Positions 3,028 through 50,888 of a DNA stretch of 64,000 nt are shown piece by piece; within the stretch, counting starts at the first letter, position 1; every line of letters begins with the position of its first letter. The DNA comes from Lysobacterales bacterium (GTDB lineage: Bacteria; Pseudomonadota; Gammaproteobacteria; Xanthomonadales; Ahniellaceae): the NCBI GenBank assembly GCA_016182785.1, contig JACPFU010000022.1, positions 1-64,000 of the forward strand, written 5' to 3'. The position numbers and the translations under genes are program-made. Below the pieces are notes generated by a model, which did no database searches, was not told where the DNA came from, and was given only the letters and a program-made list of their open reading frames with translations.

Positions 3028-6000
3028 CTACTCCCGCATCGCCTCCATCGCCCCCGGCACCGTCAGCGGCGGCGCGGCGGTCTCGAAGCCATCGAGGAAC
3101 AGGCCGATGCCGACGATCGGGTCCTGATCGGTGGCGGTGTCGTTGGCGGTGTCGAGTGCGGTGATGCCGATCGGCAAGGCTACGCTGGCGCTGTTGGTGA
3201 CGAACGCGCCGATGCTGCCATCGACTTCGGCGGTCACATCGAAGCGCAGGTACTGGCCGACGCCGAGGTTGATCGGCGTGTTCAAGTCGCCGCTGCCGCT
3301 CGCGGGCACCGGGCAGGTGGCGGTGGAACTGGCCGGCACGCATTGCCAGGACCCGTTGATCAGCGTGGCGGGCAGCGTGTCGGTGAGCGTTGCGCCGGCC
3401 ACCGCATTCGGTCCGGCATTGGCGACGACGATGGCGTAGGTCACGGTCTCGCCATCGAGCAATCCGACGCGGTGGTTGTCCTTGGCGACTTGCAGGTCGG
3501 CACCGGGCGTGACCGCGATCGTGAACTGCTGACTGCTGGAGGTGTCGATGCCAGCGTTCGCGCTGCCGCCGTTGTCGCGCACGCGCGCAGTGATGATCGC
3601 GCTGCCGCCGATGCCGCTCAGCGTGTAGTTCAACGTGCCGTTGTTCGCGATGTCGACGCTGCCGCCGGCGAGCACGCCGTCGGGGTCGGTGACGCTGTCG
3701 ATCAGAAAATCATCGACTGCCTGCGCGGTGTCCTCGTCCGCCGGACCGAAGTCCACGCTCGCGAATGCGGGCACGCTCTGCACGCCGCTGGTTGCGGCCG
3801 AATGCGTCGCGAGCGTGCCGAGTGTCAGCGCCGGTGCGTCGTTCACCGCGGTCACATTCACCTGGAACGTCTGCTGCGAACTCGCGCCGATCGGATCGGT
3901 GATCGCGAGCGTCACGGTGACGACACCGTTCTGCTGCGCCAGCGGCGCGAACGAGACGACACGCTCGCCGGCGCTCGAACCCGCGGCGACCGAGGGATGC
4001 GGCAGCACGCCGGTGTTGCCGGAAGTCGCGGTCACGCTCAATGCAGACGCGGCGGATTCCAGGTCGGAGACGTTGATGGTCACGCTCGCGACACCGGAAT
4101 CCTCCAAGACCGACTGCGCCGCGATCGAGGCGATCACCGGCGCGTCGTTGGCGAAGCTCGCAGTGACGCTGATCGGACCGGTGACGTTCGCATCGGTGCG
4201 CGGGTTGGCGGTCGAGGCATCGCTCCATTGCACGAAGTGGTAGCCGGCGTCGGGCACTGCATTCACGGCGGCAGCATCGCTGCCGTGCACCACCGTCTGC
4301 GCAGCGGAGCCGCTGATCGAACCGTTGGGGCCGGCGGCGTAGGCCAGCGCGTAGGTGGTGAGGAAGGGAGAGCCGAGGACTCGCTGCGGCAGCGCGTAGC
4401 GGCTGTCGCGCCCTCCCGCGCCGAGTTGGTTGTCGTAGTTGTCGCCCCAGCACTTGACCGAACCGCCTGCCAGCAGCGCGCAGGTATGGTTCATGCCTGC
4501 GGTCAATGCCACGGCGCCGCCGAGGCCAACGACCGCGACCGCAGTGCTGCTGGTCGTGGTCGTGCCGTCGCCGAGCTGGCCGCTGGCATTGTTGCCCCAG
4601 CACCGAACCGCACCGCCCGCCACCACGGCGCAAGTGTGGTAGCCCCCTGCAGCCAGCGCGGTGGCTCCGCTGATGCCGGTGACCGGAACCGGGACGCTGC
4701 TGTTCGTGGTCGTGCCGTTGCCGAGTTGGCCGAAGTACCCATTGCCGCCCCAGCAGCGAACCGCGCCACCGGCCACCAGAGCGCAGGTATGTTGCTGTCC
4801 CGCCGCCAGCGCAGTTGCGCCGCTGATCCCGCTGACCGATACCGCCGTGGTGCTGGTCGTGGTCGAACCGTCACCGAGCTGCCCGTATCCATTGTAGCCC
4901 CAGCAGCGAACCGCACCGCCGGTCACGACGACGCAACTATGGTAGGAGCCCGAAGCCACTGCCGTCGCGTCACCGATGCCGTTGACCGCGACCGCAGTGC
5001 TGCTGTTCACCGCGGTGCCATTGCCGAGCTGACCGCTGCCGTTGTAACCCCAACATTGGAGCGTGCCGCCAGCCATCCGCGCACAGACATGCTCTTCGCC
5101 TGCCGCCAGTTCGTTGGCGTCGCTGACACCAGTGACCGGCACTGGAACATCGCTGCTCGTGGTCGTGCCGTTGCCGAGTTGGCCGCTGCTGTTGAAGCCC
5201 CAGCACCGAACTGCACCGAGGCCCACCACGGAGCACGAGAAGTAGCCCCCGGCTGCCGACGCCGTCGCGCCGCCGATCCCGCTGGCAGTGACGGGTGTGC
5301 TGCTGTGCGCGATCGTGCCGTTGCCGAGCTGGCCTAAGCCGTTGGGCCCCCAGCACTGGACGGCACCGCCGGCCAGTGTCGCGCAGGTGTGGTAGATCCC
5401 CGCGGCCAGTGTGGTTGCGCTGTTGATGTCGTCGACATCCCACGGGACGGGGCTGGCGTTGATCCTGCCGGTTCCGAGATGGCCCAGGTTGTTTCGACCC
5501 CAGCAACGGACCGCACCGTCTCCGACCATCGCGCAGGTGTGATAGCCACCGGCCGCCAGTGCGACGACGCCGGCGATACCGAGGACATCGACCGCGGTGT
5601 TGGTGCCGACGACCGTGCCATTTCCGACCTGACCCCAATCGTTGTAGCCCCAGCACTTGATCGCATTGCCAGACACGACCACGCAGGTATGGTGGAACCC
5701 GGACGTCAGTGCCACGGCGCCGCTGATGCCCGAGACATCGACTGCGGTGGTGCTGTTCGTGAACAGACCGTTGCCGAGTTGTCCCTCGGCATTGCGACCC
5801 CAGCACTTGATCGCGCCACCGGCGACCGTCGCGCAGACGTGGAAGAAGCCGGCCGCTACCGAGTTGGCACCGCTGAGGCCACTGACCGTGACCGCGGTGC
5901 TGCTGTTCGCGGTCGTGCCGTTGCCGAGCTGGCCTTCGTTGTTGTAGCCCCAGCACCGCACGGTGCCGCTCCCCGCCGCGCAGCTGTGGTAACCGCCGGC

Positions 6001-6591
6001 CGCAAGCGCCGTGGCGCCGCTGATGCCGGTGACACCGACTGGCGTCGTCGCCTGTGTCGTCGTGCCATCGCCGAGTTGGCCGAAGTCGTTGCGCCCCCAA
6101 CACTGGACCGCGCCACCGGCCACCAGGGCGCAGGTGTGGAAGGCGCCAGCTGCCACTGCCGTTGCCCCGCTGATCCCGGATACCGCAACCGGGGTGGTGC
6201 TGCTCGTGGTCGTGCCGTTGCCGAGCTGGCCTTCGCCGTTGTAGCCCCAGCAGCGCACCGCGCCGCCGGCAACGATCGCGCAGGTGTGGGAGTAGCCGGC
6301 AGTCAGCGCCGTCGCTCCGGCGAGTCCGCTGACCGCGACGGCGCTGCTTCTGGGAGTGAACGTGCCATCGCCGAGTTGCCCGGAGCCGTTGGCGCCCCAG
6401 CATCGCACGGCACCCCCGCTGGCCAGGACGCAGGAATGCTGTTCACCCGTCGCGATCACACCGGAGCCCAGGGACTCGGGTTGCAGGGGCGCCCCCCTGC
6501 CACCGGCATCCGCCGAGGCTGCACCTGCAAGGAGCAGGACCAGCCAGCCGCAGACCAGCGTCGCCGCGCGCATGCCGCTTCGTGTTCGCAT
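3028..6591 (-). CDS. Large secreted RCC1 double-propeller protein with Ig-like and DUF11-like C-terminus
   Basis: The product has 1187 residues. In order: a signal peptide (about 1-27); fourteen RCC1 units (about 40-735), each with a CWGxN..GQLG turn, i.e. enough for two seven-bladed propellers; an InlB/List-type B-repeat (about 750-815, AAGPNGS and GYHFVQWSD); two Ig/cadherin-like stretches (about 815-1025, each opening NDAP); a DUF11-like domain (about 1030-1150, VTYAIVVANAGPN); and a short tail with LFLDGFE. The ATG at 6591 has AGGGAGAA upstream and begins the signal peptide; more upstream starts would prepend non-homologous sequence. The domain order fits a surface-exposed or secreted protein. 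The C-terminal half closely matches that of the protein at 46731-50888. A LuxR-type regulator gene is divergent, 159 bases away. The function is unknown; surface adhesion is only inferred. Confidence 0.85.
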   Translation of the reverse strand: MRTRSGMRAATLVCGWLVLLLAGAASADAGGRGAPLQPESLGSGVIATGEQHSCVLASGGAVRCWGANGSGQLGDGTFTPRSSAVAVSGLAGATALTAGYSHTCAIVAGGAVRCWGYNGEGQLGNGTTTSSTTPVAVSGISGATAVAAGAFHTCALVAGGAVQCWGRNDFGQLGDGTTTQATTPVGVTGISGATALAAGGYHSCAAGSGTVRCWGYNNEGQLGNGTTANSSTAVTVSGLSGANSVAAGFFHVCATVAGGAIKCWGRNAEGQLGNGLFTNSTTAVDVSGISGAVALTSGFHHTCVVVSGNAIKCWGYNDWGQVGNGTVVGTNTAVDVLGIAGVVALAAGGYHTCAMVGDGAVRCWGRNNLGHLGTGRINASPVPWDVDDINSATTLAAGIYHTCATLAGGAVQCWGPNGLGQLGNGTIAHSSTPVTASGIGGATASAAGGYFSCSVVGLGAVRCWGFNSSGQLGNGTTTSSDVPVPVTGVSDANELAAGEEHVCARMAGGTLQCWGYNGSGQLGNGTAVNSSTAVAVNGIGDATAVASGSYHSCVVVTGGAVRCWGYNGYGQLGDGSTTTSTTAVSVSGISGATALAAGQQHTCALVAGGAVRCWGGNGYFGQLGNGTTTNSSVPVPVTGISGATALAAGGYHTCAVVAGGAVRCWGNNASGQLGDGTTTTSSTAVAVVGLGGAVALTAGMNHTCALLAGGSVKCWGDNYDNQLGAGGRDSRYALPQRVLGSPFLTTYALAYAAGPNGSISGSAAQTVVHGSDAAAVNAVPDAGYHFVQWSDASTANPRTDANVTGPISVTASFANDAPVIASIAAQSVLEDSGVASVTINVSDLESAASALSVTATSGNTGVLPHPSVAAGSSAGERVVSFAPLAQQNGVVTVTLAITDPIGASSQQTFQVNVTAVNDAPALTLGTLATHSAATSGVQSVPAFASVDFGPADEDTAQAVDDFLIDSVTDPDGVLAGGSVDIANNGTLNYTLSGIGGSAIITARVRDNGGSANAGIDTSSSQQFTIAVTPGADLQVAKDNHRVGLLDGETVTYAIVVANAGPNAVAGATLTDTLPATLINGSWQCVPASSTATCPVPASGSGDLNTPINLGVGQYLRFDVTAEVDGSIGAFVTNSASVALPIGITALDTANDTATDQDPIVGIGLFLDGFETAAPPLTVPGAMEAMRE

Positions 6592-46730: not shown

Positions 46731-49700
46731 TCAGTGCAGAGAATCCGCCGCAACGGGAACCACCAATTGGCGGGCCGCAGCTCCCTCGAAGCCATCGCTG
46801 AATATGCCCACCGGCACTACAGAATCCCGATCAGAAGCACTGTCGTTTTCAGCCACAAGGGAAGTCACTCCCATCGGCGTGGCGATCGTTGCTGTGGCCG
46901 ATACCGGCACACCGACGCCTGCACCCACGGTGGCCATCAGATCGAAACGCAAGTACTGCCCGACGCCAAGATCGATTAACGCGTCCAGCGCACCGGCGTT
47001 CGCATCCGGCGTGGGACAGGTTGCGGTTGACTGGGCCTGCACACACATCCATCCGATCGCGGGTAGCGACGCCGACATCGCTGTCGTCACCCGTGCTGCT
47101 TCTACCGGATTCGGCCCAGCGTTCGCGACGACCACGGCGTAGACGATCGTTTCGTCCGCCAATACGCCGTTGCGGTGATTGTCGATCGCAACTTCCAGAT
47201 CGGTTCCAGTGCTCACGCCGATCACGGACTGCGCCGGCCCGGAACAATTCACGTGCGGGGCACCGACTGGACCATCGTCACAGGCACGGTAGGTCAGGAC
47301 GGAACTGCCCGTGACACCAGCCGCCGGCGTGAAACTGAGGCTGCCATCGTCCGCGAGCACGGGAGCAATCGCGAATAAGCCGGGATTGTCGACGCCGATC
47401 AGTTCCAGACTGACTTGTTGGTCAGCCTCGTCCACAGCGCTGACCGGGCCGGGCCGAATCGCCGAGATCCAGGATGCGAAGATGCTCGGGCCGGTATCGG
47501 GTGCGACGTAGCGCTCGCGCCCAGGTGCGAACTCCGGCGCATCGTTGACGGGCGACACCGTCACCGTCGCGACTACGGGGCCACCGTATTCGAACTCGGC
47601 ATCGCGCGCACGAACTGCGACCACGTGATCGCCCCCTCGCTCGAATACGCAAGCCAAGCCCAATGGCGAAGTCATCACCACATTGGCCACAAAGCCCGTA
47701 CCGTTGAAATCGCAATCGACTTCGTAAGCAGCGACAGCCTCTGCCGACGACGGCAAGGTCGCGCTTGCGTCAATGGCCATCGACTCACCCTCCACCGCAT
47801 TTGCCGGAATGTCTGCGGACAGGACAGGGACCGAGTCCGCGACGTTGACCTGAACGGACCTTGTGCTGACGGCGCCAGCGCCGTCGATGACGCGCACGGC
47901 CATTGCGTAGATGCCAGGCCCGCTCCAGCTGCACACCGCAGCATTTGACTCCTGCGGACCCAGTTCGAATACGCCATCGCCGCGACAATCGAAGGCATAG
48001 AGCAGCGTCGGCGACTCGACATCGGAGGCGGTGACGGAGATTGTCGCGATCTCATACTCGAACAACGACGACGGCGCGGCCTCCAGCGCCGACACCTGGG
48101 GTGCCTCATTGGCAAACATTGCAGTGACCTGCAACGAAGCAGTGACGTTGGCGTCGACTCGAGGATTGATCGCGCTGCCATCGCTCCATTGCAGGAAGCG
48201 GTAACCCGTTGCAGGCACCGCCGATATCGCTGTGCCCGAGCCAAGATAGGGCACCGACTGACTGGCATTACCGATCAGCGAACCATTGGGGCCCGCCGCG
48301 TATTCCAAGCTGAAATTCTGCGCTGCGGTGGTAAAGGTGACTGTGCACGGAGCCGTTACCGGCGAGGTGGTGAAGATCAGCCCGTTAAGCACTCCGCCGC
48401 AACCCTCGGCAGCGACGAGCGTGCGGCCGGGATCCGGCACGAACTGCAGCAAGACGACATCACCATGGAGCACAGCAGGATTCTGCGGTGTAACGGCACC
48501 GCCGTTATCGACCAGCGTTTCCACCAGGTGGGTGTTGCTGGACACGAACACCGCCCCGGCATCATCCCCCGCATCTGGGTAGTCGGCCAGCATCTGGCCC
48601 GCAATCCAATGGCGGTCATCCATCGCGACCGACGCGCCAAAACTGGCATGCGAATGAATGTCAGATTGCGTCATGCGCCGGTACGACCAGTTGCCCTCGA
48701 GTCGCTCGAAGCTCAGCACAGCCCCCCACGCGGACGACCAGCCTCCCACCACAAGATTGTTGTCATCGAGCGCAACTGATCTTCCGAAACCCTCGACCCA
48801 CAGCGCTGGCGGCGGGCGCAACTTGGAACGATAGCTCCAGGAACCCGCAATAAGTTCAAAGAAGTAGACGGCACCCTCGATGAGGGTCGTCCCGTTGTGC
48901 TGTCCTTTCGCGCCGATCGCAGTCCGATTGCCTTGCAGGGCGAGGTCGGATCCGAAGTTGTCGCCGCTGAATCCGTCGGGTGCCTGCAATCGGGCCTGCT
49001 GAGACCAGGTCGCGCCGTTGAACCGAAACACGAGCACTTCGCCCGGTGCGTTGCCCCGGGGCGATGTGACCATCGAGACATCGCCGTCTACAGCCACCCG
49101 ATCACCGAAGTTCGTGTACGCCCCCGAGGTCGGCAACAAGCGCGCGGTGCGCGTCCATACACCGGCATTTCGCTTGAAAACATAGGCCGCGCCGCTGCTG
49201 CCCCCTGAGCCTGGATCGCCAGGAGACCCAACCACGATGGTGTCGCCGTCCAAGGCAACCGACGTTCCGAAATACAAGGATCCAGCCGCGCTCAGCCGTG
49301 CCTGTTGAATCCACTGGTCTCCGGAACGGACAAATACATACGCAGCACCAGCGTACTGAGCGCCGCTGATGGTCTTGTTCCATGCACCCGCGACGATGGT
49401 GTCGCCCGAAATTGCCACGCTGTGGCCGAGGTAGTCGCTCGGTTGACCGTCGCTGGCGACGAGCTTGGCTTCGACCTGCCATTGGTCGGCAACCCTGCGC
49501 ATCACGGTTACGGACCCCTGTTCGTAACTTGCGACGAGCGAGTCCCGTGATGCGCCGATGACCGCCACATCGCCCTCGATGTCGACATCGGCGCCGAACA
49601 GATCGCGACTCGCGCCGCCGTTACCCAACTTGAGCGTTTCGACCAATGCAAACGAACCCGGACCGGATGCTGCGTAAACCTCGACTTGCCCACGCTGGTG

Positions 49701-50888
49701 TGCCGACCAAGTATCGGCGATGAGTGCTTCGCCGTACTGCAGCGCATTTGCCGCACGCGCAGAAGAAAGCTTCTGCCTCAGGCCCCAGCTGGAGCCACTG
49801 CGTTCGAAAACGTAGCCATTCGCCAAAGCGAGATTCGCATCCATCGCCACAGCGCCGCCGAATCTGGACTGAGCCACGCCATCGAACGCCACCAGTTTGC
49901 CTTGCTGCACCCAACTGTTGCCGGAGCGCACGAATACATAAGACGCCCCCTGATCGATGCGTCCGGACACGTCGACAGCGGGCGCGCCCACCAGGATCGA
50001 GCCCAGGCTTGTGTCGACACTTGCACCAAACTCGCTCCAGGCCTGGCCGTCCGCTGCGGACAACACGGCGCGCTGGACCCAAACACCGGATTGACGCTCG
50101 AACACCACGACCGAGCCCGCACCTTGAGCGGCGCCGATACCACCTGGTGCACCGGCAACCAGCAGTCCGTCGCGCAATGCCACAGACCGGCCGACGCGGG
50201 CGTTCGGCGCCGCGCCGGCATAGTTCACGCGCGCCTGGTGCTGCCAACTGCCGCCTGCAGCAGAGAACACGTCGATCGCCCCTTGGTCGACATTGCCCGT
50301 CACCTCAATGCCGTCGAGTCCGACGGCCAGCACATCTCCGGATAGAGCAACACTTTGCGACACAACACTGCTGCCGTCAGGGGCATTTGCTGGCGACAGA
50401 CTGGACTCCAGTTGCCACTGCCCGGCAGAGCGGCGAAACACGCGCACGATGCTTCGGACCACGAAGCCAGACTGCATTTCATTTTCGAGAACCGCGAGGC
50501 GATCACCCGAGAGTGCGATTCCTGACCCGAGGTACAGACTCGGCTCGATGCGCTGCTGGAGCTGCCAGGTCGACCCGCTCCTGGCGAAGATGAACACCGC
50601 GCCTCGTGGCAAGCCATTTCGGTAGATGCCCGGAGCGGAGACCGCCAAGGTGTCTCCATCCAGCGCCATGGCCGCGCCGAATGCTTCGAACGGCGAACCT
50701 CCGCCAAATCCCTCGATCAAGTCTGGATTGTCGATGCGCGCCGCCGCCCCATAGGCCTTGGCCAGTGATTCAGCGACCACAGCCTGCGCCGCCATCGGCA
50801 GCTCACCGGCGGCGACAACCAAGGACGCGCTGCAGGACGCCAAGAATGCGCAAAGCATCCGAACCAGATACTGACGGCTGAGGTTCAT
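46731..50888 (-). CDS. Giant secreted FG-GAP propeller protein with Ig-like and DUF11-like C-terminus
   Basis: The 1385-residue product has a signal peptide (about 1-27). Fourteen FG-GAP/integrin-alpha-like units follow (about 70-785), each with a 'hxGDxlxVGAPg' turn and a 'GAxYVFxRSGxxWxQQxxL' strand, enough for two seven-bladed propellers. A List/B-repeat region (about 785-925, AAGPNGS and GYRFLQWSD), PKD- or cadherin-like domains (about 925-1220), a DUF11-like domain (about 1225-1340, VVANAGPN, LGVGQYLRFD) and a tail with IFSDGFE follow. The last 500 residues parallel those of the RCC1 protein at 3028-6591. The ATG at 50888 has AAGAGAG upstream and starts the signal peptide. It is likely secreted or surface-bound; its function is unknown. 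Confidence 0.82.
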   Translation of the reverse strand: MNLSRQYLVRMLCAFLASCSASLVVAAGELPMAAQAVVAESLAKAYGAAARIDNPDLIEGFGGGSPFEAFGAAMALDGDTLAVSAPGIYRNGLPRGAVFIFARSGSTWQLQQRIEPSLYLGSGIALSGDRLAVLENEMQSGFVVRSIVRVFRRSAGQWQLESSLSPANAPDGSSVVSQSVALSGDVLAVGLDGIEVTGNVDQGAIDVFSAAGGSWQHQARVNYAGAAPNARVGRSVALRDGLLVAGAPGGIGAAQGAGSVVVFERQSGVWVQRAVLSAADGQAWSEFGASVDTSLGSILVGAPAVDVSGRIDQGASYVFVRSGNSWVQQGKLVAFDGVAQSRFGGAVAMDANLALANGYVFERSGSSWGLRQKLSSARAANALQYGEALIADTWSAHQRGQVEVYAASGPGSFALVETLKLGNGGASRDLFGADVDIEGDVAVIGASRDSLVASYEQGSVTVMRRVADQWQVEAKLVASDGQPSDYLGHSVAISGDTIVAGAWNKTISGAQYAGAAYVFVRSGDQWIQQARLSAAGSLYFGTSVALDGDTIVVGSPGDPGSGGSSGAAYVFKRNAGVWTRTARLLPTSGAYTNFGDRVAVDGDVSMVTSPRGNAPGEVLVFRFNGATWSQQARLQAPDGFSGDNFGSDLALQGNRTAIGAKGQHNGTTLIEGAVYFFELIAGSWSYRSKLRPPPALWVEGFGRSVALDDNNLVVGGWSSAWGAVLSFERLEGNWSYRRMTQSDIHSHASFGASVAMDDRHWIAGQMLADYPDAGDDAGAVFVSSNTHLVETLVDNGGAVTPQNPAVLHGDVVLLQFVPDPGRTLVAAEGCGGVLNGLIFTTSPVTAPCTVTFTTAAQNFSLEYAAGPNGSLIGNASQSVPYLGSGTAISAVPATGYRFLQWSDGSAINPRVDANVTASLQVTAMFANEAPQVSALEAAPSSLFEYEIATISVTASDVESPTLLYAFDCRGDGVFELGPQESNAAVCSWSGPGIYAMAVRVIDGAGAVSTRSVQVNVADSVPVLSADIPANAVEGESMAIDASATLPSSAEAVAAYEVDCDFNGTGFVANVVMTSPLGLACVFERGGDHVVAVRARDAEFEYGGPVVATVTVSPVNDAPEFAPGRERYVAPDTGPSIFASWISAIRPGPVSAVDEADQQVSLELIGVDNPGLFAIAPVLADDGSLSFTPAAGVTGSSVLTYRACDDGPVGAPHVNCSGPAQSVIGVSTGTDLEVAIDNHRNGVLADETIVYAVVVANAGPNPVEAARVTTAMSASLPAIGWMCVQAQSTATCPTPDANAGALDALIDLGVGQYLRFDLMATVGAGVGVPVSATATIATPMGVTSLVAENDSASDRDSVVPVGIFSDGFEGAAARQLVVPVAADSLH

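Follow-up and report, generated by a model that had tools for sequence, protein, structure and literature searches.

Two genes in the window, the whole 64,000-nucleotide stretch of a Lysobacterales genome analysed here, encode proteins in which unrelated propeller heads are followed by the same succession of C-terminal domains. This raises the question of what the common part is: a stalk on which heads are exchanged, as a preliminary description had proposed, or a trace of something that reaches beyond the two genes. Followed through the genome and its order, the two proteins prove to belong to a genome-wide set whose mark is a short C-terminal tag.

Two propeller proteins with one C-terminal order

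The RCC1-propeller gene (3028..6591, minus strand, as are all features below) encodes, from its translation, Pfam and a signal-peptide heuristic, a signal peptide and 14 RCC1 repeats, followed by an InlB-type B-repeat (PF18998, Pfam name Flg_new_2; 4144..4353, 53 bits against a cut-off of 23.6 in the genome search), the Ig-like domain Big_9 (3856..4149; Pfam, residues 1176-1273), a DUF11 domain (PF01345; 3130..3498, 40.2 bits against a cut-off of 24.6 in the six-frame genome search, with a fold predicted by AlphaFold2) and a tail with the motif LFLDGFE (3082..3102), which lies outside the predicted fold and has the stop 17 residues further on. The FG-GAP-propeller gene (46731..50888), read by the same means, encodes a signal peptide, 11 FG-GAP_2 repeats, a B-repeat (PF18998; 48108..48311, 33 bits against 23.6 in the genome search), an Ig-like section (47274..48110) with a weak PKD_4 match (residues 975-1064) and then a partial Big_9 (residues 1209-1253; both Pfam), a DUF11 domain (46833..47201) and a tail with the motif IFSDGFE (46785..46805), the stop again lying 17 residues further on. 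This second DUF11 domain reaches 25.2 bits against the cut-off of 24.6 in the six-frame genome search and just 19.0 bits (E = 0.0019) in the whole-protein Pfam scan, so that its assignment is marginal by model; together with its tail it is 51% identical to the DUF11 and tail of the RCC1 protein.

Pfam order and BLASTP agree that the C-terminal order is the same, as first reported from the sequence, and every motif then named for it (AAGPNGS, QWSD, NPRxDANVT, DNHR, VVANAGPN and LGVGQYLRFD) is present. The heads are indeed unrelated, with no significant BLASTP alignment between the RCC1 and FG-GAP propellers. DUF11, the InlB B-repeat, Big_9, RCC1 and FG-GAP_2 are all ordinary Pfam building blocks, and the novelty of the two proteins is the tail behind these known domains, not the domains themselves. 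The last element common to both is GLFLDGFE in the RCC1 protein and GIFSDGFE in the FG-GAP protein. Beyond it, in both window proteins (3031-3081 and 46734-46784) and in relatives from other genomes (G015:C7, G003:4454 and G025), follow 12-20 more residues with a loose 'VP.A...A' pattern, for example LTVPGAMEAM, LVVPVAADSL and FTVPGAAAAL; to judge from these few sequences, the tails of this DUF11 subfamily may include another short element that is conserved.

The shared stalk is old and modular

Pairwise BLASTP of the two C-termini, the check that the preliminary description had suggested, gave 42% identity over 280 residues (E = 1e-48) for the Ig, DUF11 and tail part and 50% over 101 residues (E = 6e-25) for the B-repeat. 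The middle Ig sections are unlike each other. At the DNA level the stalks share short blocks of 66-72% identity, and the pairwise comparison found no long near-identical tracts. The genome holds 27 DUF11 matches, 15 matches to the DUF11 and tail of the RCC1 protein used as query, and 5 B-repeats. Further stalk-bearing proteins include a second RCC1 propeller on contig C22 of the same genome and, in related genomes, a delta-60-type propeller, a beta-helix and a five-B-repeat protein (heads named from sequence, not by Pfam scan); with related stalks under other heads, head and stalk combine modularly.

Stalks were also compared across 10 genomes of the window's family. That each stalk might lie nearer to proteins of other organisms than to its partner, the outcome held from the start to speak against exchange of heads, was found for the RCC1 stalk, which shares 56% identity with a protein from a different genus (G015) against 51% with the FG-GAP stalk. 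It was not found for the FG-GAP stalk, which still matches the RCC1 stalk best, by the small margin of 153.6 against 149.4 bits for the same G015 protein. In a tree, one clade with support 90/90 takes in the RCC1 and FG-GAP stalks, the protein from G015 and a single row on a long branch. Recent recombination of the stalks is rejected in view of the divergence of their DNA and the cross-genus similarity. Of the proposed exchange of heads on a constant stalk, the modular pairing therefore stands, as further heads show; its recency and constancy do not, in view of the divergent DNA, the cross-genus match and the variable middle. These comparisons point to an old DUF11 subfamily with a variable mid-part, mobile in its combinations on an evolutionary time scale, and not to a recent cassette.

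It is very improbable that domain shuffling alone, in which heads recombine on an Ig/DUF11 stalk within one genome and carry the tail along, explains the locus. It would produce the same module order on two propellers, and homologous DUF11-plus-tail ends on other heads, both here and in relatives; against it stand the lack of shared DNA tracts, an RCC1 stalk nearer to another genus's protein, a stalk that is not constant, and the many tagged proteins described below, most of which have no DUF11 stalk.

A seven-residue motif at the C-terminus

The DUF11 proteins of the genome mostly end in [IL]-[FL]-x-[DN]-[GS]-F-E, and a few in an IPTL-CTERM-like segment. The tag can be written [LIV]-F-x-[DN]-[GS]-F-E. 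A degenerate DNA pattern for this kind of ending, run over the genome with the reversed pattern as control, gave 100 matches against 4, a count that is a lower bound since only GGY or AGY is accepted at the G/S codon. Eighty-two of these matches lie at most 18 residues from an in-frame stop (0-18 residues after the motif), and in 43 proteins FE is the very end; chance is ruled out by the excess over the reversed pattern and by the C-terminal placement. The residue preceding the pattern, which the pattern leaves unspecified, is L, I, V or M in 82/82. Across these tagged ends the F and E are strict, and there is little information in the x position, in the residues further upstream or in the DNA on either side. 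The codons of the tag show synonymous variation at roughly gene-body proportions, which together with the uninformative flanks makes the seven-residue peptide the conserved object; a DNA repeat or a terminator behind the motif is ruled out, as the codons vary and the only DNA that is conserved is that of the motif and stop codon.

As modelled by AlphaFold2, the DUF11 fold of the RCC1 protein mostly has pLDDT above 90, and the tail with the motif, at about 50, lies outside it; the tail is probably a flexible linear element. A second model (DUF7452 plus tail) is of low confidence (pLDDT 63), with the tail again a weak part, and is not relied on. Searched against NCBIfam with E values up to 10, ten isolated tails had no match, and no description of the motif was found in open-licence papers, which is weak evidence of absence; the tag is apparently undescribed so far.

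Four DUF11 proteins, each on its own contig (L029, L030, L031 and L038, on C10, C30, C20 and C16), have IPTL-CTERM-like ends (IPVPTLSLWA...RR and similar) in place of the tag, and the genome has one exosortase-family match (C32:111509), so that two C-terminal systems may coexist in it.

Carriers of the tag and their likeness to sorted proteins

About 80 proteins of some 87-1559 residues bear the tag. Their Pfam heads comprise peptidases (two M28, M64, M36, M14, S8, M12B and M23), nucleases (endonuclease I and a weak exo/endonuclease-phosphatase), amidase 3, SpoIID, FG-GAP, RCC1, PD40, BNR/sortilin, beta-helix, laminin G, DUF7452, DUF5650 and DUF4832. Most of these proteins have no DUF11 stalk. 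The most system-like feature of the window is not the stalk, as had been supposed, and is instead the LFxDGFE tail: in the broad sense of a C-terminal sorting signal, one terminus is common to many unrelated proteins. The motif stands behind the last Pfam domain of its carriers, with the exception of two proteins with an internal motif. These two are paralogues (L076 and L077; G000:C4:31448 and 52272) in which GLFADGFE and GVFMDGFE are followed by about 95 FG-GAP-like residues, as if, to go by the sequences, an ancestral tag had been extended by a further domain.

A home-made, permissive signal-peptide heuristic was positive for 60 of 66 tagged and 72 of 144 untagged frames (p = 2e-9), and only this contrast counts because half of the untagged frames are positive as well; the tagged proteins are, by this heuristic, apparently mostly exported. 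Among 80 members searched with NCBIfam, choice-of-anchor Q is the commonest domain (11/80), next to J (2), I (1) and D (1), and M36 carriers match families named for dependence on T9SS, rhombosortase or myxosortase. By analogy, the tagged cargo is of a kind known from other C-terminal sorting systems.

Such systems include GlyGly-CTERM/rhombosortase (PMC3237569), PEP-CTERM/exosortase (PMC1569441) and MYXO-CTERM/myxosortase (PMC11980579), in which, as here, a short C-terminal region occurs on many unrelated proteins, peptidases and surface proteins among them, and is patchy by lineage; their carriers have signal peptides, as those of the tag putatively do. In contrast to the motif, transmembrane helix and basic cluster of these three, the LFxDGFE tag consists of seven residues with neither helix nor cluster, often at the very end, and while each of the three has a paired enzyme (rhombosortase, exosortase and myxosortase, respectively), no partner enzyme is known for the tag. 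Membership in the known tripartite class (LPXTG, PEP-CTERM, GlyGly-CTERM and MYXO-CTERM) is ruled out, no listed tail having a transmembrane segment followed by basic residues and none of the ten isolated tails matching NCBIfam. The numbers differ as well: GlyGly-CTERM was reported on up to 13 proteins per genome (PMC3237569), against about 80 tagged proteins here.

The C-terminal domains of T9SS cargo in Bacteroidota resemble the tag, a putative signal on carriers with predicted signal peptides, in standing at the C-terminus together with a Sec signal peptide and free of a transmembrane anchor, and one tagged M36 peptidase matches the NCBIfam model for T9SS-dependent M36. The T9SS C-terminal domain is, however, a folded domain of about 70-100 residues, as opposed to the seven-residue and probably unfolded tail found here.

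Distribution within and beyond the Lysobacterales

Across 151 genomes of the order Lysobacterales, the pattern anchored to a stop codon occurs 0-59 times per genome (reversed control, 0-3), and in 229 genomes of the other orders of the class there are never more than 3 matches per genome, a background level; the tag is common in Lysobacterales and, within the class, restricted to that order. An exact 21-mer for FADGFE plus stop, scanned over 84,980 species genomes (a set that may lack records of the genome from which the window comes), was found in 13 places, all labelled Lysobacteraceae, Lysobacterales, Xanthomonadales, Dokdonella, Tahibacter or Chiayiivirga, with L, I, V or M before the match in 13/13. 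The tag seems confined to one order, and as the 21-mer is one spelling it may occur elsewhere in others. Within the order its loss is patchy.

This distribution bears on whether the tail might be a general stability element, such as a cap that shields the end from carboxypeptidases in the periplasm or outside the cell, or a last strand that aids folding. A short, near-terminal motif on many beta-rich exported proteins, with a variable number of residues behind it, would suit such a role; the reading is nevertheless improbable, given the strict F and E, the restriction to an order and the patchy loss inside it, which are unlike a generic cap, and a tail that lies outside the predicted DUF11 fold and follows heads of many different folds.

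Co-occurrence with a second type II secretion system

With a single exception, the 151 genomes sampled in Lysobacterales match a general GspD model. The window's genome has two distinct type II secretion systems (T2SS): T2SS-A (locus L230, contig C26, about 190.8-195.4 kb), with a PDZ-containing GspC, GspD and GspE side by side, and T2SS-B (locus L231), which is of a different lineage, has T2SSM_b, and whose GspD is about 24% identical to that of T2SS-A. The 151 genomes were searched with the T2SS-A GspD and the result compared with the presence of at least three tags per genome. At least three tags were found in 59 of 81 T2SS-A-positive and 7 of 70 negative genomes (odds ratio 24, p = 8e-16) and, by genus, in 30 of 33 with and 3 of 31 without T2SS-A (p = 1e-11), p-values that overstate independence because T2SS-A is largely inherited within families; as T2SS-A was picked after GspD scores had hinted at the pattern, the test is also not fully independent of the observation that prompted it. 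The association recurs within families: in f12 (four genera), at least three tags occur in 4/4 with T2SS-A and 0/20 without it, and in f2 in 1/1 with and 0/24 without. The partner factors compared were chosen candidates; exosortase, the control, has an odds ratio of 3.1 with the tag and was set aside as partner for this weak association.

Exceptions exist in both directions. T2SS-A is present in all 24 sampled genomes of family f9, of which just 5 have at least three tags, and in one genome of family f7 (G081) with zero tag matches. Conversely, two genomes that are 97-98% complete (G056 and G096) have 3 and 6 matches and no T2SS-A; five more exceptions are drafts that are fragmented or less complete. 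The one genome in which the general GspD model finds nothing (G019, family f8) is also the only one of 24 sampled f8 genomes with zero tags.

These exceptions would be expected if the tag were read by an order-specific processing or anchoring factor, such as a sortase-like enzyme or a T9SS-like outer-membrane receptor, and T2SS-A tracked it by shared ancestry or delivered part of the cargo. The cargo profile and the choice-of-anchor domains, which are those of variously anchored proteins, point the same way. We consider this reading unlikely, if worth serious attention: the tail has neither the transmembrane helix nor the basic cluster of sortase, exosortase, rhombosortase and myxosortase substrates, and no candidate enzyme was found, exosortase being only weakly associated.

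A putative secretion label

The best explanation is that the tag is what it resembles, a genome-wide C-terminal sorting or secretion label on about 80 proteins with unrelated heads, although its chances appear to us evenly balanced. That T2SS-A is its reader, as co-occurrence across the order suggests, we put forward tentatively and at somewhat less than even chances. Slightly less likely again is the full proposal that LFxDGFE is a portable linear signal of seven residues that destines dozens of folded periplasmic proteins, unrelated to one another, for T2SS-A in Lysobacterales. In the mechanism proposed for the label, a tagged protein (for the window proteins, a propeller head on an Ig/DUF11 stalk with the tag at its end) would be exported by Sec and fold in the periplasm, its exposed flexible tail would be recognised, and the protein would be handed across the outer membrane, most likely by the second, PDZ-type T2SS (GspC-PDZ/GspD/GspE, T2SS-A).

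Partial precedents exist. The PDZ domain of GspC (EpsC) is needed for secretion of VesB, with the information residing in the VesB Ig fold (PMC12369372), and in PelI a 9-residue loop (loop 3) is a signal involving GspC and GspD (PMC7949064). The parallel lies in cargo with an Ig/Fn3-like region and in a short flexible element that GspC/GspD use for selection; T2SS-A likewise has a GspC with PDZ. The VesB and PelI signals, however, are structural and specific to one cargo each, whereas LFxDGFE is one linear motif common to about 80 putative cargoes. A link of GlyGly-CTERM to a T2SS subclass was sought in the study that described that tag, and none was found (PMC3237569).

How T2SS cargo is chosen is a long-standing question, and no universal linear T2SS secretion signal is known (PMC12369372). 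If the proposal holds, cargo choice would become testable through a conserved seven-residue tag that about 80 mostly exported proteins per genome carry and that tracks a single subclass of T2SS across an order. Even with another machine as reader, the tag would predict much of the exported and surface proteome of the order and give a likely destination to many hypothetical proteins.

Variation in GspC and neighbours of the T2SS-A cluster

A PDZ-like C-terminus is present in 31/31 GspC-A proteins examined, those of the tag-poor family f9 included, so that PDZ presence alone is not the discriminator between tag-rich and tag-poor lineages and is ruled out as such. The start of the PDZ (loci L230, L232-L241 and L272-L291) is 'ENGKxVGVRL'-like in several tag-rich families and 'GGGFRVRPGR' in f9, a lineage difference that may reflect phylogeny only. 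M28 peptidases were uninformative as a view on f9 tails, the loci coming mostly from a different, untagged M28 group; one M28 locus, in G011, ends in FADGFE. Beside the T2SS-A cluster of the window's genome (L230:11351-14392, plus strand) lies a gene for a protein that joins a kinase (PF00069) to a WD40-like C-terminus, and kinase-like matches also adjoin the T2SS-A cluster in two other genomes (G031 and G109).
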